Source: an uncultured Spirochaetaceae bacterium
Lineage (GTDB): Bacteria; Spirochaetota; Spirochaetia; Sphaerochaetales; Sphaerochaetaceae
DNA: 39,592 nt
Assembly: GCA_944390015.1 (NCBI GenBank)
Contig: CALXOL010000020.1
Location: 1-39,592, forward strand
Direction: 5' to 3'
A program made the position numbers and the translations under genes. Positions 12,309-30,007 of the stretch are shown piece by piece. How positions within the stretch are numbered: position 1 is the stretch's first letter; each line of letters starts with the position of its first letter. A model generated the notes under the pieces. The model made no database searches. It saw only the letters and a program-made list of their open reading frames with translations, and had not been told where the DNA came from.

Positions 12309-14450
12309 ATGGCAGCAACTCACATCGATGATAAAATCAGGCGAAGCGATGCCTTAAGTAAGGCACGTGGAGAGGCAAAGTACGTATCCGATTACTTTTT
12401 TGAAGGCATGCTGCATGCCCAGATGCTTAGAAGTACGGAAGCTAGAGCTGATATAGTAAGCATCAATCTTCCGGTTTTACCGGATGGTTACTACTTCATC
12501 AGTGCTAAGGATATCCCGGAGCAGGGCGTGAACAGCCTTCACATGATTGGAGACGACTGGAGATGTTTTGCAGATGGGGATGTCCGTTATGTCGGAGAGA
12601 CCATAGGACTCTTTGTAGGTCCGTCCCCTGCGGTTGTCAAAAGTCTTGTTGATAACACAAGGGTTGAATACAGACCTAAGGAGAGCTGTATAACGATTGA
12701 CGATGCCATCGCAGTCAAGGGTGGATCCCTTCTTGATGGAAAAGATGATGATATCATGTGTCAGCTCTACTGTGAGAAAGGGCATGACATGGAGGAGGTC
12801 TTCAAGGATGCGGACATGGTTCTTACGGAGACTTTCGAGACGGGCTTCCAGGAGCACGTTCATCTTGAGACAAATGGAGCGATTGTTACTGAGGAAGGGG
12901 ACAGCTATGTGATTTACATCTCATGCCAGTGCCCGTTCTATGTTAGGAAATCAGTTGCAGCTCTTCTTGCCCTGCCGCTTGAGAAGGTGATAATAAGACA
13001 GACCACCACAGGTGGAGCATTCGGTGGAAAGGAGCATTTCCCCGATGTGCTTGCCGGTCCTCTTCTCGTTGCTGAGAGCAGGATACATAAGCCGATAAAG
13101 ATGATTTTTGACAGAGAAGAGGATATGGAGTTCTCAGTAAAACGACACCCTTCTAAAATCACATATAAATCCGCCATTAAGGACGGAAAACTAATCGGGA
13201 CACTCGGCGACATATATTATAACTGCGGTGCCTATCTTTCCGCATCATTCGTAGTCCTTCAGCGCGGAGTGTTCCACGCAAACGGAGTATATGACATTCC
13301 AAACACCCGCCTTAACGGGTATGGAATGGCCACAAATACGTTCCCAAGTGATGCTTTCCGTGGCTTTGGCGCTCCTCAGACTCTCTTTGCAATTGAGATG
13401 CACATGACGCATATTGCACGTAAGCTCGGCATCGATCCTGCTGATTTCAAGAAGAGCATGTTCCTTAAAAAGGGTGGGGAGACGGTTACTAACGGGCATG
13501 TTGTTGAAGAGGTCATGCTCAACGAGATGTTCGACAACATAGCAAAGGAATCTGATTATTACAGAAAAAGCCGTGAGTTCGGCTATGGCACAGGACGTGG
13601 AATCGGAGTGAGTTTCTATAATCATGGCGGTGCTTTCACTGGAAACGGCGAGCAGGCGATCATTAAGGCACATGCCAGGCTGAAAAAGACGGGAAATAAG
13701 GTCACGATAGAAACCGGCTCTACAGAGATGGGACAGGGATTCCAGACCATATTGAGGAAGATTGCGGCCTCCACTCTTGCCATTCCGATGGAGGATGTCG
13801 ATTATCCGAATCCAGATACTTCAGTAGTTCCTGACTCTGGTCCTACGGCTGCCTCCAGATCCACAATGATCGTAGGTAGGATAATCGAGCGTTGTGCCCA
13901 GGAGATGAAACAGCGCTGGGGTGAGGGCGATTTCTCCGTAGAGAAGGAGTATGAGCACCCCGATGGATTCCCTTGGGACCAGAGCACGTTCCGCGGTGAT
14001 GCGTATCTTGGATACGGTTGGGGAGCTGCGATTGTAGAGGTTGAGATCGACAAGAGGACGAATGAGGTACAGGTAAAAGGCATTTGGACGAGTCATGAGA
14101 TTGGAAAGGCCATCGATGAGCTTATCGTACATGGTCAGATAAACGGTGGTGTTATCCAGAGCCTCGGGTATGCTTCAATGGAGAAGATGGAGAACAGAAA
14201 CGGCCGCTTCAAGCAGACCAGCATGTCCGATTACGTGATACCTACCAGCATGGATTTCCCTGCTCAGTATTATCATATCCAGGAGAATCCATACCCTTAC
14301 GGTCCTTATGGTGCGAAAGGCATGGGAGAACTTGTATTCAACGGTGCTGACGCAGCATATTGTGATGCTCTTGAGAGGGCGATAGGAAAAGACATATTTA
14401 AGATTCCACTCCCACCGGAGGACATAGAGGAGGCACTTAGGAATGCTTGA
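12309..14450 (+). CDS. xdhA: Molybdenum hydroxylase large subunit, XdhA-like
   Basis: 713-aa molybdopterin-binding catalytic subunit of a xanthine dehydrogenase-type enzyme (E. coli XdhA is of similar size). Molybdopterin-contact motifs are present: TTGGAFGGKEH, DAFRGFGAPQT and ETGSTEMGQGF. The catalytic Glu lies in YGAKGMGELVF. E242 (in GGKE) and R319 (in LQRGVFHANG) align with bovine Glu802 and Arg880, which hold the purine, so xanthine or hypoxanthine is the likely substrate. The gene begins a five-gene operon, with 2Fe-2S and FAD subunits following in the overlapping order A-C-B. The selenium genes nearby suggest a selenium-dependent cofactor. Confidence 0.88.
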   Translation: MAATHIDDKIRRSDALSKARGEAKYVSDYFFEGMLHAQMLRSTEARADIVSINLPVLPDGYYFISAKDIPEQGVNSLHMIGDDWRCFADGDVRYVGETIGLFVGPSPAVVKSLVDNTRVEYRPKESCITIDDAIAVKGGSLLDGKDDDIMCQLYCEKGHDMEEVFKDADMVLTETFETGFQEHVHLETNGAIVTEEGDSYVIYISCQCPFYVRKSVAALLALPLEKVIIRQTTTGGAFGGKEHFPDVLAGPLLVAESRIHKPIKMIFDREEDMEFSVKRHPSKITYKSAIKDGKLIGTLGDIYYNCGAYLSASFVVLQRGVFHANGVYDIPNTRLNGYGMATNTFPSDAFRGFGAPQTLFAIEMHMTHIARKLGIDPADFKKSMFLKKGGETVTNGHVVEEVMLNEMFDNIAKESDYYRKSREFGYGTGRGIGVSFYNHGGAFTGNGEQAIIKAHARLKKTGNKVTIETGSTEMGQGFQTILRKIAASTLAIPMEDVDYPNPDTSVVPDSGPTAASRSTMIVGRIIERCAQEMKQRWGEGDFSVEKEYEHPDGFPWDQSTFRGDAYLGYGWGAAIVEVEIDKRTNEVQVKGIWTSHEIGKAIDELIVHGQINGGVIQSLGYASMEKMENRNGRFKQTSMSDYVIPTSMDFPAQYYHIQENPYPYGPYGAKGMGELVFNGADAAYCDALERAIGKDIFKIPLPPEDIEEALRNA

Positions 14451-14919
14451 TAATAAGATTTCATTCACCCTTAACGGGAAGATGGTAGAGTTCATTGGAG
14501 ATCCGTTGAGGCGTCTGATAGATACACTTCGAGAAGATTTCAATCTCATAGGAGTTAAAGAGGGTTGTGGAGAGGGCGAATGCGGCGCCTGCTCCGTGAT
14601 AAAGGACGGCAAGCTGGTAACAAGCTGTATAATCCCGATGGGCGCTGTAAACGGTGCTGATATCTGGACTATTGAGGGTATAAGGGAGACAGAGCTGGGT
14701 AAAATCATCATAGAGGCTTTTGCCGATGGCGGTGCCGTACAGTGCGGTTTCTGCATTCCGGGCATGGTACTTGCCTCTTATGTACTCTTAAAAGACAAGG
14801 AGAATCCAAGTGAGCTTGAGATAAGGGAGGCTATAAGCGGAAACATCTGCAGATGCACAGGTTATGACCTTATCGTTGAAAGCATCCGGCTCGCAGATGA
14901 GAGAAGGAGGAATGCGTGA
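14443..14919 (+). CDS. xdhC: Molybdenum hydroxylase 2Fe-2S subunit, XdhC-like
   Basis: 158-aa electron-transfer subunit carrying both clusters (E. coli XdhC is 159 aa). The plant-type ferredoxin domain shows EGCGEGECGACSV plus a Cys in LVTSC. The helical domain shows QCGFCIPG and NICRCTGYD, so all eight cysteines are present. The gene overlaps the xdhA stop by 8 bp and shares a TGATG junction with the FAD subunit gene. It is the only complete 2Fe-2S protein of the operon, so it could also serve the YgfM/XdhD pair, whose own ferredoxin domain is dead. This gene is not the XdhC/CoxI maturation factor, which is at 21913-22854. Confidence 0.92.
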   Translation: MLDNKISFTLNGKMVEFIGDPLRRLIDTLREDFNLIGVKEGCGEGECGACSVIKDGKLVTSCIIPMGAVNGADIWTIEGIRETELGKIIIEAFADGGAVQCGFCIPGMVLASYVLLKDKENPSELEIREAISGNICRCTGYDLIVESIRLADERRRNA

Positions 14920-15776
14920 TGAACTGTTATATTCCTGAGAATCTTACTGAGGCCTTAGAGATAAGGAAGAAGACACATGCCGTTCCTATGGCGGGTGGAA
15001 CGGATCTGATGGTTCAGGCGAAGAAGGGGATAGGAATAAATCCCGCTTTCAAGACTCCAATCATGATAATCTCCTATCTAAGTGAGCTGAAAGGGATAAA
15101 AGTAGAGGATGATGGCACTCTGGTAATAGGTTCTCTTGCTACAAGCAGTGAGATTGCAGATGATGAAAGGGTCTTCTATCCGATAAGAAAGGCTGCATCC
15201 CTCATGGGAGCCGTCTCGCTGAGAAATACAGCCACGATAGGAGGAAATATTGCAAATGCTTCCCCAAAGGGTGATCTTCCCCAGCCCCTGATTCTTCTAG
15301 ATGCCGAGCTGGTCCTCTCCTCTATAGATAGAGAGAGGATGATAAAAGTCGATGACTTCATCATAGGTGCGAAGAAGACAGTACTTCAGGATGACGAGAT
15401 AATAAAGGAAGTGAGAATAAAGCCTGTAAAGGCAACGCATTATTTCTATCATAAAATTGGAACGAGGAAAGCGAATGCGATCAGCAAGCTCTCTCTTTCA
15501 ATTCTTGCGGATGTGGAAGATGGCATCCTTAAGGATTTCAGGGCATCTTCAGGTGCTTCCGGGGACAAGGTGAAGAGAAGCAGGGATGCCGAGATGATTC
15601 TTATTGGTAAGCCCATCTCTGAGATTGCCTCCCATATTGATGAGTTTACTTCGGCATGGGATAGGATTCTCTCTCCACATGCGATGCCACAGTATAGGAG
15701 AGAGAGTACGAGGAGAATGCTTTCAGACTTCTTGATAAAACTGTCAGAAGGTGCCGAACCAGGCATATATGAATAG
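14919..15776 (+). CDS. xdhB: Molybdenum hydroxylase FAD-binding subunit, XdhB-like
   Basis: 285-aa FAD subunit that passes electrons from the Fe-S clusters to NAD or another acceptor (E. coli XdhB is 292 aa). FAD-contact motifs are MAGGTDLMVQAKKG and ATIGGNIANASPKGDLPQPL, followed by the CO dehydrogenase flavoprotein C-terminal domain (KIGTRKANAISKLSLS). I prefer ATG 14919, in the TGATG overlap 8 nt after AAGGAGG, over the GTG at 14916. It sits between the 2Fe-2S subunit and a second, shorter FAD protein. Confidence 0.9.
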   Translation: MNCYIPENLTEALEIRKKTHAVPMAGGTDLMVQAKKGIGINPAFKTPIMIISYLSELKGIKVEDDGTLVIGSLATSSEIADDERVFYPIRKAASLMGAVSLRNTATIGGNIANASPKGDLPQPLILLDAELVLSSIDRERMIKVDDFIIGAKKTVLQDDEIIKEVRIKPVKATHYFYHKIGTRKANAISKLSLSILADVEDGILKDFRASSGASGDKVKRSRDAEMILIGKPISEIASHIDEFTSAWDRILSPHAMPQYRRESTRRMLSDFLIKLSEGAEPGIYE

Positions 15777-16453: not shown

Positions 16454-19330
16454 ATGGTTATAAACGTAAAAATCAATGGTAAGAACGTAAGACTTGAAAG
16501 TGAGGCTCTAAAGGATTTGAGAAGCGTCCTCTATGCTGCTGGATATAATTCAGTAAGGGACAGTGATGACAGGGAGGGCTTTACAGGAAGTGATACCATC
16601 ATATTCAACTCCCGTCTGATGTACTCGAATTTTATTCCATTCTTCAGAGCGGATGGGGCTGAGATTTATACGGCCGAGTCTCTTTTGAAGAACAGGAAGA
16701 TCAATGATGTGCAGCAGGCAATGGTGGATGCGGGCATCGTGCAGAGTGCATACAATTCACCTGCGGCGGCGCTCATTCTTACCTTTCTTCTTGAGAAGAA
16801 TCCAGATGCGACAAGAACCGATGTGCGTGAAGCACTCTCAGGCCTTTTTGTCCGTGATGCAGGATATGAGCATTATTATCTGGCAGTAAGACTTGTTCAG
16901 GAGAAAAGGAGATATGGAGAGTATAAGAGCATCGTGTCCCCGTCATTCAGAGATAACCTGACTTATGTCGGAAAACCTACGGGAAAGATAGATGGGGAAG
17001 CTCTCGTCTCTGGTGAGCGGGTCTTTGTCGAGGATAAGGTTCTTCCTGGATACAGCGTTCTTAGGGTTTTGAGGAGCCCTTATGCTCATGCTTATATCAA
17101 GAGCATAGATACATCCGAAGCGGAGGCTCTTGAAGGTGTTGATACCGTCATTACATGTTTTAACTGTCCTGATGTGTATTATATGCAGGCTGGACAAGGA
17201 AATCCCGAGCCAAGTCCTCATGACAGAAGGCTTTTAAACAGGAAAGTACGGCATGTCGGAGACCGTGTCGCAGCCGTAGTTGCGGACAACGATGAAATAG
17301 CAGAGAAGGCTTTATCTCTTATCAAGGTTGAGTATGAGCCCCTTGATGCTGTCTTTACAGTAGAGGAGGCCATGGCTGAAGGCGCTCCCCTTGTTCATAA
17401 TGGAATAGTGGAGTATCGCTCAGGAGCCCCGGAGGATTTAGATGAGTACAATAAGAACGCCAATCCGCTGGATGGAAAGGTCATCTACCAATTTCCACTC
17501 CATGGGGATATCAGGAAGAATATAGCAGCGGGAGCGCACGGAGGAATAGGCGACATCGAGAAAGGTTTTGCCGAAGCCGATGCCATCGTTGATTCGACTT
17601 ATCAGACAAGTCAGGTACAGTGTACTCCTCTTGAGCCCCATGTATGCTATACGCGTCTTGAGAACGGGCGCTTAGTAATCCATGCATCCACGCAGGTCCC
17701 GTACCATGTGAGAAGAATCGTATCATGGGTTTGTCAGATTCCTGAGCATAAGATCCATGTGATAAAAGAAAGGGTCGGTGGAGGATATGGCAGTAAGCAG
17801 GATATCCTGGTTGAGGATCTTGCGGGCTATGCCACATGGATCACGGGTAAGAGTGTTTATTACAGGAATTCTAGGGAAGAGGAGTTCTGGGCGAATTCCA
17901 CACGCCATCCGATGAGGGTAAGAGTCAAGATGGGTGGAAAGAAGGATGGAACGATTACAGCGATCTACATGGATGTAAGGGCGAATACAGGTCCTTATGG
18001 GAACCATTGTCTTACGGTTCCTATGAACGCATCGAGTAAGACTCTTCCTATCTTTGCCGTTGAGAACATGTATTATGATCTTCTGACGTATTATACCAAC
18101 ATACCTCCTACGGGAGCCTATCAGGGATATGGTGCGCCAAAGGGATATTTCGGAATCATCAGTGCGATGGGAGAGCTTGCAATGAAGCTTGGCATAGATC
18201 CTCTCCTGATGGCAAAGAAGAATATCGTGCACTCAGGCTACATGCTTGAAATCCTCAAAGGGCTAGGAGAGGGAAGAGAAGGCACTGTGGTTCCTGTCGG
18301 TTCCTGCGGTCTTGAAGAGGCCCTTGATAAGGGTGCATCCATGATGGACTGGGGTAAGAAGGAGGTTTCTGAAGATCCTGATTGGGCTATCGGAAAGGGA
18401 TTTGCGATGATTCAGCAGGGCTCCGGACTGCCGGGACTTGACCACTCAAATGCCCAGGTGAAGCTTGTAGCCGACGGAACTTTCCTAGTCTTGTCAGGCG
18501 GGGCAGACATTGGAACCGGACTTGATACGATAAGCGCCAAGTGCTGTGCTGAGATAATGAAATGCCCGCTAGAGGATGTCTCCGTTGTCTCTGGAGATAC
18601 CGACTCCTGTCTTTTTGATACCGGCGCGTATGCATCCAGTGGTACGTACTTCAGCGGTAACGCATCATTGAATGCGACAAAAGATCTCAAGAAGAAGGTC
18701 ATCAAGGAGGCTTCCCTCCAGATGAATGAGGATGAGGCGGATCTTGAACTTGAATATCCGGGAAAGGTCGTTTCTAAAAAGAGTGGTAAGGAGCTAAGTT
18801 ACAAGGATCTTATTCATACGGCTCTTGCAGGTGATGGACGTGGTGCTATAGTAGGTACGGGATGCTTCGTAACTCCTAATTTCGCAGTTCCTTACGGTGC
18901 GCATTTTGCTCAGGTCGCTGTCAATAAGAAGACTGGAAAGGTGAAGGTGCTGAAGTTCTATGCGCTTCAGGATGCGGGTACTCCGATTAACCCGGAGCTT
19001 GCACTCTGTCAGATGTACGGGGCTGTGCAGAAGAGCATCGGGCATACGCTTTATGAGAACATGGTACTCGATAAGAGTGGAAAGTGTATTAACGGTAATT
19101 TCACCGATTATGGAGCACCAATGATTGAGGAGGCTCCAGAGGATTTCAAAGCGGTGCTTATAGATGTTAATGACCAGTATGGCCCGTTTGGTGCAAAATC
19201 GATTTCAGAGATTGCTACAAATGGCGCAGCTCCTGCCATTGCCATGGCTATTGCCGATGCCGTAGGAGTGTGGGTGCGGTCCTGGCCTATAACACCGGAG
19301 AAGATATTGAAGGAGATGGGGAAGATCTAG
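16454..19330 (+). CDS. xdhD: Selenium-dependent-type molybdenum hydroxylase, XdhD family
   Basis: 958 aa, nearly the length of E. coli XdhD (956). The first ~155 residues have the order of a 2Fe-2S subunit (NVKINGKNVRLE, then VQQAMVDAGIVQSAYNSPAA, then ALSGLFVRDAGYEH), but every cluster cysteine is replaced. The rest is a full molybdopterin subunit: KERVGGGYGSKQDI, GAYQGYGAPKGYF, GGADIGTGLDT, and the catalytic Glu in GPFGAKSISEI. Purine-binding residues differ from XdhA: Q449 stands for Glu802 and L531 for Arg880 of bovine XDH. Family knowledge links XdhD to the ygeW purine catabolism region of E. coli. The substrate is probably not xanthine itself. GGAGG precedes the ATG. Confidence 0.88.
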   Translation: MVINVKINGKNVRLESEALKDLRSVLYAAGYNSVRDSDDREGFTGSDTIIFNSRLMYSNFIPFFRADGAEIYTAESLLKNRKINDVQQAMVDAGIVQSAYNSPAAALILTFLLEKNPDATRTDVREALSGLFVRDAGYEHYYLAVRLVQEKRRYGEYKSIVSPSFRDNLTYVGKPTGKIDGEALVSGERVFVEDKVLPGYSVLRVLRSPYAHAYIKSIDTSEAEALEGVDTVITCFNCPDVYYMQAGQGNPEPSPHDRRLLNRKVRHVGDRVAAVVADNDEIAEKALSLIKVEYEPLDAVFTVEEAMAEGAPLVHNGIVEYRSGAPEDLDEYNKNANPLDGKVIYQFPLHGDIRKNIAAGAHGGIGDIEKGFAEADAIVDSTYQTSQVQCTPLEPHVCYTRLENGRLVIHASTQVPYHVRRIVSWVCQIPEHKIHVIKERVGGGYGSKQDILVEDLAGYATWITGKSVYYRNSREEEFWANSTRHPMRVRVKMGGKKDGTITAIYMDVRANTGPYGNHCLTVPMNASSKTLPIFAVENMYYDLLTYYTNIPPTGAYQGYGAPKGYFGIISAMGELAMKLGIDPLLMAKKNIVHSGYMLEILKGLGEGREGTVVPVGSCGLEEALDKGASMMDWGKKEVSEDPDWAIGKGFAMIQQGSGLPGLDHSNAQVKLVADGTFLVLSGGADIGTGLDTISAKCCAEIMKCPLEDVSVVSGDTDSCLFDTGAYASSGTYFSGNASLNATKDLKKKVIKEASLQMNEDEADLELEYPGKVVSKKSGKELSYKDLIHTALAGDGRGAIVGTGCFVTPNFAVPYGAHFAQVAVNKKTGKVKVLKFYALQDAGTPINPELALCQMYGAVQKSIGHTLYENMVLDKSGKCINGNFTDYGAPMIEEAPEDFKAVLIDVNDQYGPFGAKSISEIATNGAAPAIAMAIADAVGVWVRSWPITPEKILKEMGKI

Positions 19331-21912: not shown

Positions 21913-22854
21913 TTACATAATTAAGCGGAACATCACTTTTGTCTTTCCACCACAGGCCATGTTGAGAGCCCCGTCTTTCTCCAGATTGAAATCCAGAATT
22001 CTGAATTTCTCATTGTTCTTGAGCATCTTCCTTGCTTCTTTTATGCATTCGACTTCAATAGCTCCTCCGCCTATTGTGGAGAATACGTCGCTCTCTGTTA
22101 CCGCCATCTCCACTCCTTGCTCTCTAGGCCCTGAGCCCTCTTTCTCTACGATTCTCACAAGTATCGTTTTATCCTCATTACATTGAAGATAATCCAGCAT
22201 TGACGAATCGATTGTTATCTGTCTTTTGTCCTCTCTGAATGTTTTTATGACCTCGGCAAGAATTGAGATGGCTATCTCTTGAGGGCTTTGTGCGTTTATA
22301 TCCATTCCAATCGGGGCATGAACACTCTTTAGGAGTTCTTTATCTATTCCTCTTTTTTCCAAGTTGGAGTATGTAAGCTCTATTTTCTTCCTGCTTCCGA
22401 TCATACCCACATAGCGTGATCTGTACTTACTCAGTACGTAATAAAGAGCTTCCTCATCCCATTTGTGCCCATGGGTGAAGATAAGGAAATAAGGGTTATC
22501 AAAAGAGTATTGCTTCTGGAAGATCTTATCATAATCTTCAATTATTATTTCAGCTTTTGCATAAAGCTCGTCATCTGCTATGTTTTTCCTGTCATCAAAG
22601 ATGATGAGTGGGAATTCCAGTGCTTCAGATATCCTGTAGATGCTCTTTCCGATGTGCCCGAAACCAAAGAGCACGAGAGTGGGGCGCATTGATATTATCT
22701 CCTCGCTGTAGATGGATGGCTCATCGTATCCGCTTGTGCTGAGGATGAGAGAGCCGTCCCTGTATAGCCCTTCTTCTCCCGTTTCGAGGTCTGTGATCCT
22801 TTTTAATGCCCCTTTTTCAAGAAGTTTTTTCAACTCGCTATAATATCTTCTCAT
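21913..22854 (-). CDS. XdhC/CoxI-family molybdenum hydroxylase maturation factor, inverted domain order
   Basis: 313-aa accessory protein thought to bind the molybdenum cofactor, mature it (sulfuration or selenation) and insert it into the hydroxylase. Two family domains are present in the reverse of the usual order. The Rossmann domain comes first (about residues 58-205: LFGFGHIGKS, FTHGHKWDEEAL, GMIGSRKK and APIGMDINAQSPQEIA). The XdhC/CoxI domain is last (about 228-313: EGSGPREQGVEM, STIGGGAIEVE and MACGGK). In proteins such as B. subtilis PucA the CoxI domain is N-terminal. It overlaps the upstream desulfurase gene by 4 bp and has a GAGGAG Shine-Dalgarno. Its partners should be the XdhA and XdhD enzymes. 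Confidence 0.83.
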   Translation of the reverse strand: MRRYYSELKKLLEKGALKRITDLETGEEGLYRDGSLILSTSGYDEPSIYSEEIISMRPTLVLFGFGHIGKSIYRISEALEFPLIIFDDRKNIADDELYAKAEIIIEDYDKIFQKQYSFDNPYFLIFTHGHKWDEEALYYVLSKYRSRYVGMIGSRKKIELTYSNLEKRGIDKELLKSVHAPIGMDINAQSPQEIAISILAEVIKTFREDKRQITIDSSMLDYLQCNEDKTILVRIVEKEGSGPREQGVEMAVTESDVFSTIGGGAIEVECIKEARKMLKNNEKFRILDFNLEKDGALNMACGGKTKVMFRLIM

Positions 22855-23978
22855 CTCGTCTCCTCTCTTATGGCCTCTAATGTCTCTTCTATCTCATCAT
22901 TTTTTGTAAACGGTCCCGGTGAGAGCCTGATAGTCCCCTCAGGGTAGGTTCCAATGACCTTGTGCGCGGTTGCTGCGCAGTGCAGGCCGACCCTGGTTTC
23001 TATCTGATGGCGCTCAAGAAGCCGCTCTGCAAGAATTGCGTTATCCATGTTTTTCGCACTTATGCTGATTGCCGCATTCCTTTTTTCACTTTTATCGCCG
23101 AAAACTGTTATTCCATCTATGGATAGAAGTCCGCTAAGTAGGTGAATGATATTCCTCTTCTCTTTTTCTCTTAATTCTTTTAAGTGCTTTTTTACATAGC
23201 TGACACTCTCATAAAGTCCATAAAGACCGGGAAGATTGCGTGTGCCCGATTCAAACTTGTCGGGGAAAATCTCTGGTTGTGAAAAACTCTCAGAGAAGCT
23301 TCCCGTCCCTCCGGTATATAGGGGTTTGAGCCTCTGGGCAAACTCCTTTGTCGCAACGAACCCTCCGGTTCCCTCAGGCCCTAAGAGCCCCTTATGTCCT
23401 GAAAAACATAGAGCGCTTATTTTCCACTCGTCCATTTTGATGTCCACATAGGGCAGGGCCTGTGCCGTGTCTATTATCAGGGGGAGTTTCAATTCATCTG
23501 CTATCGATGATAGCTTTTCAACATCTTCAATCACACCTGTCACATTTGATGCGATGGAGAATACTATCGCCTTCGTGTTCTTCTTTTTTAGCGCTGGTAT
23601 ATCGTCAAGATTGTTTCTTCCACTCTTATCGGCTCCTGTCGTGGAGTAGTCAAGTCCGATTGAGCTTATTGTCCTCATTACGGCGTTATGCTCAGTAGCG
23701 GATGTTATGACATGATCCCCTTCTGATAGAAAACCACGCATGACTGTGTTTATCGATTCTGTGAGTCCTGAGTTCAGAAAGACCGTATCCTCTCCACAGT
23801 GCCCGATGAGCTCTGAAATCTCCATTCTCAGGCTTATCATGTCGTTTACAGTCTCATAGCTTTTCTCACTTGTCGTTCTGTTTATGTTCCTTCCATTCTT
23901 TGAGAGAAAGTCGAATACTCTTTCAGCTACCCCTGGCGCTTTTGGAAAACTCGTAGAGGAATTATCTAGGTAAATCAT
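22851..23978 (-). CDS. EF2568-type cysteine desulfurase of the selenium-molybdenum cofactor cluster
   Basis: 375-aa class V aminotransferase-fold PLP enzyme. It begins MIYLDNSSTSFPKAPGV, has the PLP lysine in FSGHKGLLGPEGTGG, LYTGGTGSFSE, ESGTRNLPG, and a late Cys in RVGLHCAATAHK. These are markers of the EF2568/SufS-like family that accompanies selenium-dependent molybdenum hydroxylase genes, where it may deliver sulfur or selenium. I start it at ATG 23978 because the longer frame (24002) begins inside a good promoter, 6 nt past whose -10 the internal ATG lies. It is coupled by overlap to the XdhC-type factor. It is divergent from yedE. Confidence 0.87.
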   Translation of the reverse strand: MIYLDNSSTSFPKAPGVAERVFDFLSKNGRNINRTTSEKSYETVNDMISLRMEISELIGHCGEDTVFLNSGLTESINTVMRGFLSEGDHVITSATEHNAVMRTISSIGLDYSTTGADKSGRNNLDDIPALKKKNTKAIVFSIASNVTGVIEDVEKLSSIADELKLPLIIDTAQALPYVDIKMDEWKISALCFSGHKGLLGPEGTGGFVATKEFAQRLKPLYTGGTGSFSESFSQPEIFPDKFESGTRNLPGLYGLYESVSYVKKHLKELREKEKRNIIHLLSGLLSIDGITVFGDKSEKRNAAISISAKNMDNAILAERLLERHQIETRVGLHCAATAHKVIGTYPEGTIRLSPGPFTKNDEIEETLEAIREETR

Positions 23979-23984
23979 AGGAAC

Positions 23985-24014
23985 AGTATAACGCTTTTCC
24001 ATTGCATGTGTAAA
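23985..24014 (-). promoter_or_regulatory. Candidate leaderless promoter of the desulfurase-xdhC-helicase-tetR unit
   Basis: On the minus strand: TTTACA (24009-24014, 5/6), an 18-nt spacer and TATACT (23985-23990, 5/6), then 6 nt to ATG 23978. No Shine-Dalgarno is seen. It overlaps the divergent yedE promoter region. Confidence 0.55.
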
Positions 24015-24036: not shown

Positions 24037-25107
24037 ATGATTTCATCTTTTAAGGAAAAAAGGAATTTAGCTATCACCGGTGCACTCATCGGTGTGGTAG
24101 CAATCGTTCTGATGGTTTTGGGAAATCCCGGTAACATGGGTTTCTGTATCGCATGTTTCATCCGTGACATCGCAGGATCTCTGAGCCTTCATAATACGGC
24201 AATAGTCCAGTATATGCGTCCTGAGATTATCGGAATCGTTCTTGGTGCGTTCATAATCAGTGTCATCAAAGGGGAGTTCAAGCCGAGAGCTGGAAGTGCT
24301 CCAATCATGCGTTTCGTTTTAGGCTTTTTCATGATGGTGGGGGCACTCGTGTTCCTGGGCTGTCCGCTGAGGATGGTTCTGCGCCTTGCAGCAGGGGATA
24401 TGAATGCTTTTATAGGACTTCTGGGTTTCATTACGGGAATCGCCATAGGTTCGTTTTTCCTTAATAACGGCTTTTCGTTAGGGAGGGCGCATGATGTGGA
24501 TAGAATTGAAGGTGCGGTATTTCCTTTTATAAATATCGTCCTGCTTTTCATCCTTCTTTTCTTCCCATCCCTCTTAAAGTTCAGTGAATCTGGGCCTGGA
24601 AGCATGCATGCTCCCATCGTCATATCTCTCCTTGTCGCCCTTATCGTCGGAATGGCGGCGCAGCGTACAAGGCTCTGCATGGCAGGTGGTATAAGGGATA
24701 TCTTCCTGATAAAGGATTTCACGCTAATAACGGGTTTTGTCTTCATTTTCATTGCAGCCCTTATCTCAAATATTGCTATTGGGAATTTCCATCTCGGTTT
24801 CGCAGACCAGCCTGTTGCTCATGATAAACATCTTTGGAATTTCCTCTCGATGGCACTTGTCGGCCTCTCTGCTGCGATGCTTGGAGGCTGTCCTCTCAGA
24901 CAGTTGATCCTAGCGGGAGAAGGGAACAGCGACAGTGCTGTAACTGTACTTGGTATGCTCATTGGAGCTGCGTTCAGCCATAATGCTGGAGCTGCATCTT
25001 CTGCAGGTACAGGTCCTGCGATGATTGGAAAGGTGAGTGTGGTAGTCGGTCTCGTATTCTGCTTGGCCTTGGCTGCCGTGATAACCAGAAAAAGGAGTAG
25101 ACAATGA
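24037..25107 (+). CDS. yedE: YedE-family putative selenium transporter
   Basis: 356-aa inner-membrane protein with about ten hydrophobic helices in two YeeE/YedE repeats. Paired Gly-Cys motifs typical of the family are GFCIACFIRDIAG and LGCPLRMVLR in the first half, TRLCMAGGIRD and GGCPLRQLIL in the second. The YeeE relative transports thiosulfate. The YedE subgroup next to selD and yedF is proposed to import selenium compounds, which is a family inference and not a measured substrate here. It starts a four-gene operon with overlapping junctions. Confidence 0.85.
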   Translation: MISSFKEKRNLAITGALIGVVAIVLMVLGNPGNMGFCIACFIRDIAGSLSLHNTAIVQYMRPEIIGIVLGAFIISVIKGEFKPRAGSAPIMRFVLGFFMMVGALVFLGCPLRMVLRLAAGDMNAFIGLLGFITGIAIGSFFLNNGFSLGRAHDVDRIEGAVFPFINIVLLFILLFFPSLLKFSESGPGSMHAPIVISLLVALIVGMAAQRTRLCMAGGIRDIFLIKDFTLITGFVFIFIAALISNIAIGNFHLGFADQPVAHDKHLWNFLSMALVGLSAAMLGGCPLRQLILAGEGNSDSAVTVLGMLIGAAFSHNAGAASSAGTGPAMIGKVSVVVGLVFCLALAAVITRKRSRQ

Positions 25108-25310: not shown

Positions 25311-25516
25311 TCATTACTTTCTTCTCGCATTATGAGGCTGTGAAGGCAAAGAGAATAATAGGAAGCGGAAGCCTCATTCCCGTTCCACGCGCTCTCTCCT
25401 CATCCTGCGGTACGGCTCTCAGGACGGAGCTTTCCGTATTCATGGCACATCATGAGTTTGATTATGACAAGGCATATTTGAAAGAGGGGGATTCATGGTC
25501 CGTCTTACAAGTCTAG
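25286..25516 (+). CDS. DUF3343 protein of the selenium cluster
   Basis: 76-aa soluble protein with VVITFFSHYEAVKAKRII at the N-terminus and a conserved LIPVPRALSSSCGTALR segment with one Cys, the hallmark of DUF3343. Members are repeatedly found next to yedE, yedF and selD and are suspected to help in selenium or sulfur handling, but no activity is established. It overlaps yedF by 25 bp and selD by 22 bp, so translation of all three is tightly coupled. Confidence 0.8.
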   Translation: MADIREEVVITFFSHYEAVKAKRIIGSGSLIPVPRALSSSCGTALRTELSVFMAHHEFDYDKAYLKEGDSWSVLQV

Positions 25517-26520
25517 TAAAAACATCCGGCTGTGCGGCAAAGCTCAGCCCTAAAGACCTCGATAGAGTTCTTTCTGAGATACCTTTGATGAGGTGTGACG
25601 GCCTTCTTGAAGGTTTTGAGCATTCAGACGATGCCCTGGTCTATGATATGGGGGATGGCAGTGTGCTTATAGAGACGGTCGATTTCTTCCCTCCGATGGT
25701 TGACGATCCTTTCACTTTCGGGCAGATTGCCGCTGCAAATGCACTTTCAGATATATATGCGATGGGAGGGGAGCCTAAGCTTGCCATGAATCTGATGTGC
25801 TTCCCACATTGCCTTGACCTCTCTGTGATGAAAGAGATTCTTCTTGGTGGAATGGATAAAGTTAAAGAAGCTGGTGCTGTCATAGCAGGAGGGCATACGA
25901 TAAGCGACAGGGAACCAAAGTACGGTCTATCCGTGACAGGATTCGCAAAAAAGAATGAAATCTGGTACAACAGGGGACTAAAAGAGGGAGATGTGATAAT
26001 CCTTACTAAGAAGATAGGGGTGGGCGTGGTTAATACTGCCAGTAAGGTGGATGAGGCTGACTCTGACAGCATAGAGGATGCCATAGCATCGATGACTACA
26101 CTGAATAAAAGAGCCCGTGATGCGGCAAGGGATCTTTCTGTCCATGCAGCAACCGATGTCACAGGCTTTTCTCTCTTAGGACATCTTAGGGAGATGGCGA
26201 AATCATCGGAAAAGACGGTTGAACTTTGCTATCATATGATTCCGCAGATAGATGGAGCTTTGGATCTCGCAAGGTTCGGTTTCCTTCCAGAGGGTGCATA
26301 TAACAACAGGGAGTTCATCTCTCCTGATGTCTCTTTTACTAAAGATATAAGGAGGGAGGATGAGGACATCCTTTTTGATCCTCAGACCTCGGGCGGCCTT
26401 CTTCTTTCAATGGATAGAAGTAATGCAAAGATATTCCTCTCCCGTATGAAGAATACCCCAGCCTCAATAATCGCAGAAGTGAAGGAAAGAGGGGAGAAGC
26501 TCATAGAAATACTTCCATGA
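25495..26520 (+). CDS. selD: Selenide, water dikinase (selenophosphate synthetase)
   Basis: 341-aa enzyme making selenophosphate from selenide and ATP. The N-terminal catalytic loop is KTSGCAAK. C13 aligns with essential Cys17 of E. coli SelD and K16 with Lys20, while the second cysteine (Cys19 in E. coli) is Ala. No selenocysteine codon is used. Further markers are a DFFPPMVDDPFTFGQIAAAN segment, IYAMGGEPKLAM, AGGHTISDREPKYG, TDVTGFSLLGHL and DPQTSGGLL. No selA, selB or tRNA-Sec is in the window, so here SelD most likely serves the selenium cofactor of the molybdenum hydroxylases. AGAGGGGG sits just upstream of ATG 25495. Confidence 0.94.
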   Translation: MVRLTSLVKTSGCAAKLSPKDLDRVLSEIPLMRCDGLLEGFEHSDDALVYDMGDGSVLIETVDFFPPMVDDPFTFGQIAAANALSDIYAMGGEPKLAMNLMCFPHCLDLSVMKEILLGGMDKVKEAGAVIAGGHTISDREPKYGLSVTGFAKKNEIWYNRGLKEGDVIILTKKIGVGVVNTASKVDEADSDSIEDAIASMTTLNKRARDAARDLSVHAATDVTGFSLLGHLREMAKSSEKTVELCYHMIPQIDGALDLARFGFLPEGAYNNREFISPDVSFTKDIRREDEDILFDPQTSGGLLLSMDRSNAKIFLSRMKNTPASIIAEVKERGEKLIEILP

Positions 26521-26823: not shown

Positions 26824-28092
26824 ATGAGAAGGTCGATAACTGTTTTTCCCAAGCTCACTGATAAGGAAGTCTCCGCTATAGTTGAGACAGGCAAGCAGTA
26901 TGCGAGGGCCTTCAACATGGCATCAGAGTGCCTAATCAATAACAGCAGCACATCCAAGAGGTTCCTTCATAAGGTCCAGTATGGGAGGATAAAGGAAGAA
27001 TGTCCTTCTCTTCCAACAGGACTCATACAGTGTGCAAGGGATGTCGCAGTGGAAGCTGTCAAGAACTGGAATGTGAAGAGGACGAAGCTTAAGCAGAAAC
27101 ATCCTAAGAAAGCAGAAAGGATGAAGCGGCCGTCGATGAAGGATAAGTGCACGATGCGCTATGATGTGAGAACCATAACGCTTCGAGGTTCTCAGCTCAC
27201 ATTCAGCACCTGCGACAAGAGGATAAAGACGATAATAACAATCCCTGAGTTCTTCAGAGGGAGATACTCTCCATCTGACGGCTGGAAGCTCAAAGGAGCG
27301 AACATAGGGATAAATAGGAAAGGACGGGTGTTCGTCAATCTCATTTACGAATGCCCTGATCATATAATTGAAGAGAACAATGATGGGAAGATAGTGGGAC
27401 TGGACAGAGGAATCTACAATATCGTTACGACCTCTGAGGGAGTCCACTATGGAGCAAAGGATGCAAGGCGGGTGAAGAGGAAATACAATCATGTACGCTC
27501 TGAGCTGCAGGAGAAAGGCACCCGCAGTGCGAAGAGGAGACTCGTCTCCATCTCGGGCTGCGAGAAGAGGTTTGTCCATGACCAGAACCACTGCATTTCC
27601 AAGAAGCTTGCCAATACTGATGATGTATCCGTATACGTCCTTGAAGACCTGTCATCCATGAACATGCTGAGACTCAAGGGGAAGAGCAACAAGACCATGA
27701 GGAAATGGATATCCAACTGGTCGTACTCCGACCTTGAGTTCAAGCTTACATACAAATGCCAGAAGAACGGCATAAAAGTTGAGTTCGTCGATGCGCGCTA
27801 TACTAGCCGGAAATGCTCGGTGTGCAAGACGATAGACAAGGCTTCAAGGAATGGAAACAGATACACATGCAGGCATTGCGGCAGCAGTATGCATGCAGAC
27901 GTAAATGCGGCCATCAACATCCGCGACAACTACATCACCCGGGCCCAGAAGTCCGGGCAGGCTGCAGTCAATCAGCCAGGGGAGCCTTCGGGTCACCCCG
28001 TAAGTGGATGGAGTGCCACAGGTAAACCGGAGACGGAACCTCTGGGGAAAACGCTCACGTCCAAGCCTTCAGGCTTGCCTGAAGGTCGTTGA
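26824..28092 (+). CDS. tnpB: TnpB/OrfB RNA-guided nuclease of an IS200/IS605-type element, copy 1
   Basis: 422-aa TnpB, a relative and ancestor-type of Cas12 that in studied members cuts DNA using an omega RNA guide. The RuvC residues appear intact: Asp in VGLDRGIYN, Glu in YVLEDLSSMN and Asp in HADVNAAINI. A four-Cys zinc site lies between them (CSVCKT and CRHCGS). The last ~40 codons overlap the presumed omega RNA and the right-end hairpin. No tnpA accompanies it, so it is a TnpB-only element that depends on a transposase elsewhere. A second, inverted copy lies at 38471-39592. There is no Shine-Dalgarno. Confidence 0.9.
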   Translation: MRRSITVFPKLTDKEVSAIVETGKQYARAFNMASECLINNSSTSKRFLHKVQYGRIKEECPSLPTGLIQCARDVAVEAVKNWNVKRTKLKQKHPKKAERMKRPSMKDKCTMRYDVRTITLRGSQLTFSTCDKRIKTIITIPEFFRGRYSPSDGWKLKGANIGINRKGRVFVNLIYECPDHIIEENNDGKIVGLDRGIYNIVTTSEGVHYGAKDARRVKRKYNHVRSELQEKGTRSAKRRLVSISGCEKRFVHDQNHCISKKLANTDDVSVYVLEDLSSMNMLRLKGKSNKTMRKWISNWSYSDLEFKLTYKCQKNGIKVEFVDARYTSRKCSVCKTIDKASRNGNRYTCRHCGSSMHADVNAAINIRDNYITRAQKSGQAAVNQPGEPSGHPVSGWSATGKPETEPLGKTLTSKPSGLPEGR

Positions 28093-28804: not shown

Positions 28805-30007
28805 ATGGCAAAGACCAGAAGTGATATTGAAGCTTTAATCAGTAAACTGAAATCTCTTAAAACGGAGAACATGTATCTTGATGATTTCTTCCATACATGG
28901 AAGAAGAGTGATGATGAGATTGATGCGGTATTTACAGTTGCAGAGATCTTAAGGGGAATGAGGGAGAACAATATCTCTTCAAAGGTCTTCGATTCCGGGC
29001 TTGGAATCAGCATCTTCCGTGATAACTCAACTCGTACGCGTTTCTCATTCGCATCCGCTTGTAATCTTTTAGGACTGGAAGTTCAGGATCTTGATGAGAA
29101 GCTTTCCCAGATTGCTCACGGAGAGACAGTCAGAGAGACTGCCAACATGGTATCCTTCATGGCAGATGTCATCGGTATCCGTGATGACATGTACATTGGT
29201 AAGGGCCATACATACATGAAGACCGTAAGTGAGGCTGTTCAGGAAGGATATAAGGACGGTGTTCTTGAGCAGAGACCTACGCTTGTAAACCTCCAGTGTG
29301 ATATCGACCATCCAACACAGGCCATGGCCGACATGCTCCATGTGATTAATCATTTCGGAGGGGTGGAGAATCTCAAAGGAAAGAAGATCGCCATGACTTG
29401 GGCGTACTCTCCTTCCTATGGAAAGCCACTTTCCGTTCCTCAGGGAATTATTGGACTCTTCACAAGATTCGGTATGGATGTCGTTCTGGCTCACCCAGAG
29501 GGATATGATGTGATGAGCGATGTTGAGGATGTTGCTGCTGAGAATGCAAAGAAATCAGGAGGATCCTATAAGAAGGTAAGCTCGATGGAAGAGGCATTCA
29601 AGGATGCAGATATCGTATACCCGAAATCATGGGCTCCATACGCTGTCATGGAAGAGAGAACGAAGCTCGTGGAGGAGGGCAAGTTCGATGAGCTTAAAGA
29701 GCTTGAGAAGAGGTGTCTAGCAAACAATGCGAAGTTCAAGAACTGGACATGCTCAGAGGATCTCATGAAGACGACAAAAGACGGCAAGGCACTCTACATG
29801 CACTGCCTCCCTGCTGATATCACGGGTGTTAGCTGTAAGGAAGGTGAGGTTGATGCATCCGTATTCGACCGCTACCTTGTTCCTCTTTATAAGGAAGCTT
29901 CCTATAAGCCATACATCATCGCTGCCATGATCTTCCTTTCCAAGTTCAAAGATCCATCTGCAAAACTCGCAGAGCTTCTTGAAGAGGGAAAGAAGAGGGT
30001 AAAATAA
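28805..30007 (+). CDS. ygeW: YgeW-type carbamoyltransferase
   Basis: 400-aa member of the aspartate/ornithine carbamoyltransferase superfamily, close in length to E. coli YgeW (396). The carbamoyl-phosphate loop is DNSTRTRFSF. HPTQAMADMLH supplies the His-Pro-x-x-Gln motif and MHCLPAD the Cys-Leu-Pro loop, so the carbamoyl-phosphate site looks intact. Its second substrate is not settled. In E. coli ygeW heads the purine catabolism cluster that includes xdhD, which fits the molybdenum hydroxylase genes in this window. It has its own promoter, an AGGAGG Shine-Dalgarno and a strong terminator, so it is a single-gene unit. Confidence 0.9.
   Translation: MAKTRSDIEALISKLKSLKTENMYLDDFFHTWKKSDDEIDAVFTVAEILRGMRENNISSKVFDSGLGISIFRDNSTRTRFSFASACNLLGLEVQDLDEKLSQIAHGETVRETANMVSFMADVIGIRDDMYIGKGHTYMKTVSEAVQEGYKDGVLEQRPTLVNLQCDIDHPTQAMADMLHVINHFGGVENLKGKKIAMTWAYSPSYGKPLSVPQGIIGLFTRFGMDVVLAHPEGYDVMSDVEDVAAENAKKSGGSYKKVSSMEEAFKDADIVYPKSWAPYAVMEERTKLVEEGKFDELKELEKRCLANNAKFKNWTCSEDLMKTTKDGKALYMHCLPADITGVSCKEGEVDASVFDRYLVPLYKEASYKPYIIAAMIFLSKFKDPSAKLAELLEEGKKRVK

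Follow-up and report, generated by a model that had tools for sequence, protein, structure and literature searches.

Canonical XdhC binds the molybdenum cofactor, which is sulfurated by the desulfurase NifS4 while bound, and then inserts it into the enzyme; nearly every member of the family retains one particular cysteine, Cys82 in R. capsulatus XdhC (PMC2997495). An XdhC half is also found fused to YqeB (TIGR03309), e.g., in Escherichia coli, haloarchaea and Spirochaetia, where it is a module of the selenium-dependent molybdenum hydroxylase (SDMH) system; genetic data from C. difficile implicate YqeB in selenium-dependent purine use (PMC11448449).

The protein described here is encoded in a 39,592-nucleotide stretch of DNA from an uncultured Spirochaetaceae bacterium (hereinafter, the window). 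It shares with R. capsulatus XdhC (TIGR02964), PaoD, PucA and CoxF both Pfam domains, the GSxPR, IGGG, CGG and GxGH motifs and the conserved cysteine. Genes of the canonical family likewise cluster with molybdenum hydroxylases and a cysteine desulfurase (cf. the NifS4-XdhC partnership), but the protein from the window differs from this family in its rotated domain order and in scores that fall below those required by the equivalog models. Among proteins of known structure, BH1974 (PDB 3ON5) and the Mycobacterium smegmatis homolog of Rv0376c (PDB 2WE7/2WE8) align with it in all three segments, in both sequence and fold, except that the CoxI domain is N-terminal in 3ON5 (residues 1-104) and C-terminal in the permuted protein. 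The YqeB fusions differ from it in having the canonical order and, in those spirochaetes that also possess the permuted protein, in lacking the cysteine of the CGG motif. As far as the searchable open literature goes, the permuted arrangement is apparently an undescribed variant of XdhC: no description of it was found in papers with an open license, nor was any biochemistry or experiment on a permuted member.

Circular permutation of XdhC

The gene (21913..22854, minus strand) is a single open frame for a protein of 313 aa; stop codons abound on the opposite (plus) strand. A Pfam search identifies XdhC_C (PF13478) at residues 60-202 (E 3.7e-35, 121.6 bits, with a cut-off of 29.7) ahead of XdhC_CoxI (PF02625) at residues 229-286 (E 6.2e-13, 48.9 bits, with a cut-off of 24.3); with both domains above the curated cut-offs, the protein belongs to the XdhC/CoxI family in the broad sense. 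Three segments are recognizable, all on the minus strand: an N-terminal "mid" segment (22687..22854, residues 1-56 or about 57), a degenerate CoxI-like repeat; the XdhC_C Rossmann domain (22231..22686, residues 57-208) with the GFGHIG motif at residues 64-69 (22648-22665); and the C-terminal CoxI domain (21916..22221, residues 212-313) with SGPREQG at residues 241-247, TIGGG at 260-264 (IGGG from 261) and CGG at 301-303, the codon of Cys301 being located at 21952..21954. These motif positions are those given in the initial annotation, which also correctly recognized the Rossmann-first, CoxI-last order as the opposite of that in XdhC and PucA. It regarded an additional CoxI domain at the N-terminus as incompatible with this reading; the Pfam scan gives no CoxI match there, but residues 1-57 are not domain-free, given that the mid segment is weakly CoxI-like.

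The 313-aa protein is a true circular permutant, in which the order CoxI-mid-Rossmann is converted into mid-Rossmann-CoxI, because its N-terminal 57 residues correspond to the segment that links CoxI and Rossmann in long canonical XdhCs and is itself degenerate CoxI-like, and every segment of the parent is accordingly present in rotated register. Comparison of the profile of 67 permuted relatives with 3ON5 aligns positions 11-226 with residues 136-348 of the chain and positions 228-328 with residues 21-122. The NCBIfam model XdhC_rel_AOR, which represents canonical XdhC, is also matched in rotated register; for example, residues 3-241 of the Geosporobacter protein align with profile positions 108-345, and the second stretch is matched separately. 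The hhalign score of the N-terminal segment against the mid segment of long canonical XdhC is 31-34, compared with 11 for the best of 150 shuffles.

The AlphaFold2 model of the 313-aa protein (pLDDT 95.2, pTM 0.90), which is of very high confidence, agrees with this correspondence. Residues 1-213 of the model superimpose with VIA-align on residues 107-331 of 3on5_A with a Z score of 18.9 and an rmsd of 5.6 A over 205 residues, a loose fit, so that the relative placement of the mid and Rossmann segments may differ, and the CoxI domain, modelled alone, superimposes on residues 1-104 with a Z score of 14.6 and an rmsd of 2.2 A; both Foldseek and VIA-align superpositions follow chain order. As judged from the conservation of sequence, fold and motifs, the cut point falls between structural units, near residue 105 of 3ON5, so that both the CoxI and the Rossmann module remain whole, and the suggestion of the initial annotation that the permutation moved the cofactor site finds no support. 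The domain order, the homology of all three segments and the preserved folds are direct results of these comparisons.

The mid segment of long XdhC is itself similar to CoxI (E 3e-6), so that, judging by sequence, the architecture of the long form looks like CoxI, degenerate CoxI and Rossmann. This similarity, together with a weak resemblance of the permuted N-terminus to canonical CoxI (E 4e-4), would also fit a rearranged duplication, in which the N-terminal segment is a remnant of the original CoxI and a second CoxI was added at the C-terminus. Such a history is unlikely: the match of the N-terminal segment to the mid segment is much stronger than that to CoxI (score 34 vs 22, with shuffle maxima of 10 and 15, respectively) and extends over almost the entire segment, and it is collinear with the mid segment of 3ON5.

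The permuted protein retains all invariant XdhC motifs. Cys301 of the CGG motif, invariant across the 67 permuted proteins, is the conserved cysteine expected in the XdhC/CoxI family and, by motif position rather than by direct alignment, is probably the equivalent of Cys82 of R. capsulatus XdhC. The protein stays below the curated cut-offs of the canonical XdhC equivalogs TIGR02964 (150.0 vs 161.6 bits) and NF045664 (218.5 vs 350 bits), and the order that these define, with CoxI N-terminal to the Rossmann domain, is inverted; the permuted order alone would cause such scores. Annotators should be aware that equivalog models miss permuted XdhC owing to its domain order.

Phyletic distribution and origin

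The permuted order is found at over 100 loci from five phyla, and its presence as an uninterrupted frame in 112 distinct proteins excludes chance or an assembly artefact. Nor is it a recent oddity of this genome, given that it is both family-wide and present in the five phyla. In the sample of the class Spirochaetia (297 genomes), it is confined to the family represented in the window, with 34 genomes as counted from single matches spanning both domains, and canonical XdhC is the rule in the other families examined. When GTDB genomes were scanned with a ranking by full-length match, which favors the permuted form, this form was identified in Lachnospiraceae and other Clostridia, Synergistaceae, Desulfovibrionaceae and one Dehalococcoidia MAG; in Geosporobacter, both domain orders are present in one cluster (L095).

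In the tree constructed from the reordered domains, 68 of the 69 permuted rows form one group, and a tree in which all permuted rows are constrained to a single clade is not rejected (p-AU 0.665) and has a likelihood higher than that of the free search. The simplest reading is probably one permutation with later transfer between phyla.

In another spirochaete family, XdhC is split (L121:6372-7450): in contrast to the single permuted protein, it is encoded by two slightly overlapping genes, a mid-Rossmann gene (255 aa) followed by a CoxI gene (105 aa). This pair adjoins selD, and its sequences cluster with the permuted ones.

Gene neighborhood

The locus in the window is an SDMH cluster. The start of the permuted XdhC gene overlaps by 4 nt (ATGA) the stop codon of a gene for a class V aminotransferase (22851..24002, minus strand), a relative of the EF2568-type cysteine desulfurase/selenocysteine-lyase (TIGR01977, E 1.2e-102, below the cut-off). 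Such a relative is encoded directly upstream of permuted XdhC in 33 of the 40 loci of the same family, and several of the remaining 7 include too little upstream sequence. Next to this pair, in divergent orientation on the plus strand, are genes for a putative selenium transporter of the YedE family (24037..25107; TIGR04112, 496 bits, with a cut-off of 200), the selenide, water dikinase SelD (25495..26520; TIGR00476) and the YgeW knotted carbamoyltransferase (28805..30007; TIGR03316, 772.8 bits). A frame at 26824-28092, between selD and ygeW, appears from its sequence to be TnpB-like (IS605-type).

On the other side, also on the plus strand, lie the gene for the molybdenum/Fe-S subunit of SDMH (16454..19330; TIGR03313, 1208 bits, with a cut-off of 1102), which is the likely client of permuted XdhC, and that for an FAD subunit related to TIGR03312 (15779..16453). 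The latter is short (224 aa) and scores 65.9 bits, far under the cut-off of 241.5. They are preceded by three plus-strand genes for a second molybdenum hydroxylase (12309..15776), namely the molybdenum subunit (12309-14450; PF02738/PF20256), the 2Fe-2S subunit (14443-14919; 158 aa with 8 Fe-S cysteines) and an FAD-type subunit (14916-15776), the last assigned by reading its sequence. In the SDMH subunit, the ferredoxin-like N-terminal half (residues 1-175) is kept as a domain but its Fe-S cysteines are lost, none being present in the protein from the window and nearly all being gone in 15 relatives; the separate 158-aa subunit retains its eight.

On another contig, the same genome encodes YqeC and an XdhC-YqeB fusion. 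Thus, with the TIGR03313 hydroxylase, selD and yedE at the locus and yqeB in the genome, the permuted XdhC lies among the markers of SDMH, as expected of an SDMH accessory protein, although the form is not restricted to genomes with YqeB (see below). The selD/yedE context mentioned in the initial annotation is indeed present.

Predicted function and the YqeB-fused XdhC half

Taken together, it is likely that permuted XdhC derives from a long XdhC, probably once, has spread widely among anaerobes and works as an XdhC; in Sphaerochaetaceae, it appears to have replaced the XdhC half fused to YqeB. Its cofactor binding, sulfur or selenium transfer and client enzyme are predicted from the canonical family and from gene context. 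In a long XdhC (CoxI-mid-Rossmann), the CoxI domain would have been relocated to the C-terminus, probably in a single event. The resulting protein, in which Cys301 occupies the place of the conserved XdhC cysteine, would bind and hold the molybdenum cofactor; sulfur, or selenium mobilized through SelD, would be supplied to the held cofactor by the EF2568-type desulfurase/lyase, to which permuted XdhC is translationally coupled, and permuted XdhC would then insert the loaded cofactor into the molybdenum hydroxylase of the cluster. The desulfurase relative directly upstream and the invariant CGG cysteine suggest the same job as that of canonical XdhC, with either sulfur or selenium delivered; most likely, this is the ordinary XdhC job with an unmoved cofactor site.

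Many spirochaetes encode YqeB fused to an XdhC half in canonical order, and the state of the CGG cysteine in this half follows the presence of the permuted gene, a link that is new here. Among Spirochaetia genomes with the permuted protein, the cysteine is absent in all 23 sampled fusions (e.g., at L112), whereas 25 of the 26 fusions from genomes without that gene retain it (L106:2735-4234 and L181-L200 compared with L201-L220 and L234-L240). The sole exception comes from a fragmented genome, and other sampled members of its genus have the permuted gene. The cysteine is also retained in the YqeB fusions of E. coli and two haloarchaea. Five permuted-bearing genomes of the genus represented in the window encode YqeB in frames that, at only 266-277 aa, leave no room for an XdhC half. 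On the YqeB tree, gain of the permuted gene and loss of the cysteine map to one place, so that the pattern represents a single event; it is suggestive but does not consist of statistically independent cases, and its raw Fisher value is no evidence of repeated events. With the cysteine of the fused half lost in the presence of the permuted protein and kept in its absence, the permuted protein looks like a functional replacement that, in Sphaerochaetaceae, seems to have assumed the role of the YqeB-fused canonical half. A more complete scenario, which we propose tentatively and rate slightly below an even chance, is that the permuted lineage had a single origin, was dispersed among phyla and displaced the YqeB XdhC module in Sphaerochaetaceae, with subsequent loss of the cysteine, such that a cysteine-bearing unit for sulfurating or selenating the cofactor (permuted XdhC with its coupled desulfurase) became split from a cysteine-free YqeB fusion.

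The XdhC-YqeB fusion on another contig of the same genome would leave room for the permuted protein to have drifted to a different task, e.g., that of a selenium carrier partnering YqeB, with insertion into the hydroxylase performed elsewhere. This is quite improbable, considering that the fused half lacks the conserved cysteine here and in all sampled relatives with the permuted gene, and that the permuted protein retains every invariant XdhC motif.

The two modules of XdhC can be rotated, split (L121) or fused to YqeB, which suggests that they probably act as a docked pair and not through chain order. The permuted proteins are natural constructs for locating the binding of the molybdenum cofactor, and their comparison with the cysteine-less XdhC-YqeB offers a clean genetic contrast for the entry of labile selenium into selenium-dependent molybdenum hydroxylases.

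Domain order and selenium

The initial annotation connected the permutation with a selenium-specific reaction. In this reading, the rearranged protein would handle a selenium-bearing cofactor in place of a sulfurated one, and some counts of YqeB, the marker of SDMH, are compatible with this: YqeB accompanies the locus in the window, is encoded in 33 of the 34 permuted-bearing Spirochaetia genomes, compared with 41 of the 89 that have the canonical form only, and is present in 33 of 48 other permuted-bearing genomes from many groups. The Spirochaetia excess, however, comes from a single family, Sphaerochaetaceae, and a permuted copy is lacking in 41 of the 74 YqeB-positive Spirochaetia. Among 196 Clostridia genomes, 32 have XdhC matches; as read from the match rows, a permuted copy is present in 14 of them and the canonical form alone in 18, with no significant excess of YqeB in the permuted-bearing genomes (10 of 14 vs 10 of 18, Fisher p 0.47). 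All 20 YqeB-positive Clostridia fall among these 32 genomes, and half of them have canonical XdhC only. Conversely, YqeB is missing in 4 of the 14 permuted-bearing Clostridia and in 15 of the 48 genomes from many groups, many of which are incomplete MAGs. The Clostridia survey rejects a restriction of the permuted form to selenium genomes. The permuted gene also occurs next to general molybdenum cofactor genes (L068 and L095) and unrelated genes (L089). A selenium-specific adaptation is thus very unlikely: the permutation is genuine but widespread in many anaerobic bacteria, and a selenium-specific meaning is not supported.

The presence of YqeB on both sides of the Clostridia split, together with the Spirochaetia counts, shows that XdhC accompanies YqeB irrespective of domain order. 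In 8 canonical-only Clostridia, a compact XdhC is adjacent to YqeB, and in 7 other Clostridia with YqeB, the permuted gene lies within about 11 kb on the YqeB contig, with no canonical XdhC match; near YqeB, the two forms look interchangeable in this class. In Lachnospiraceae and relatives (L221-L231), several YqeB frames continue into sequence resembling the start of MocA (VILAAGAGTR) and are apparently YqeB-MocA fusions that lack an XdhC half.
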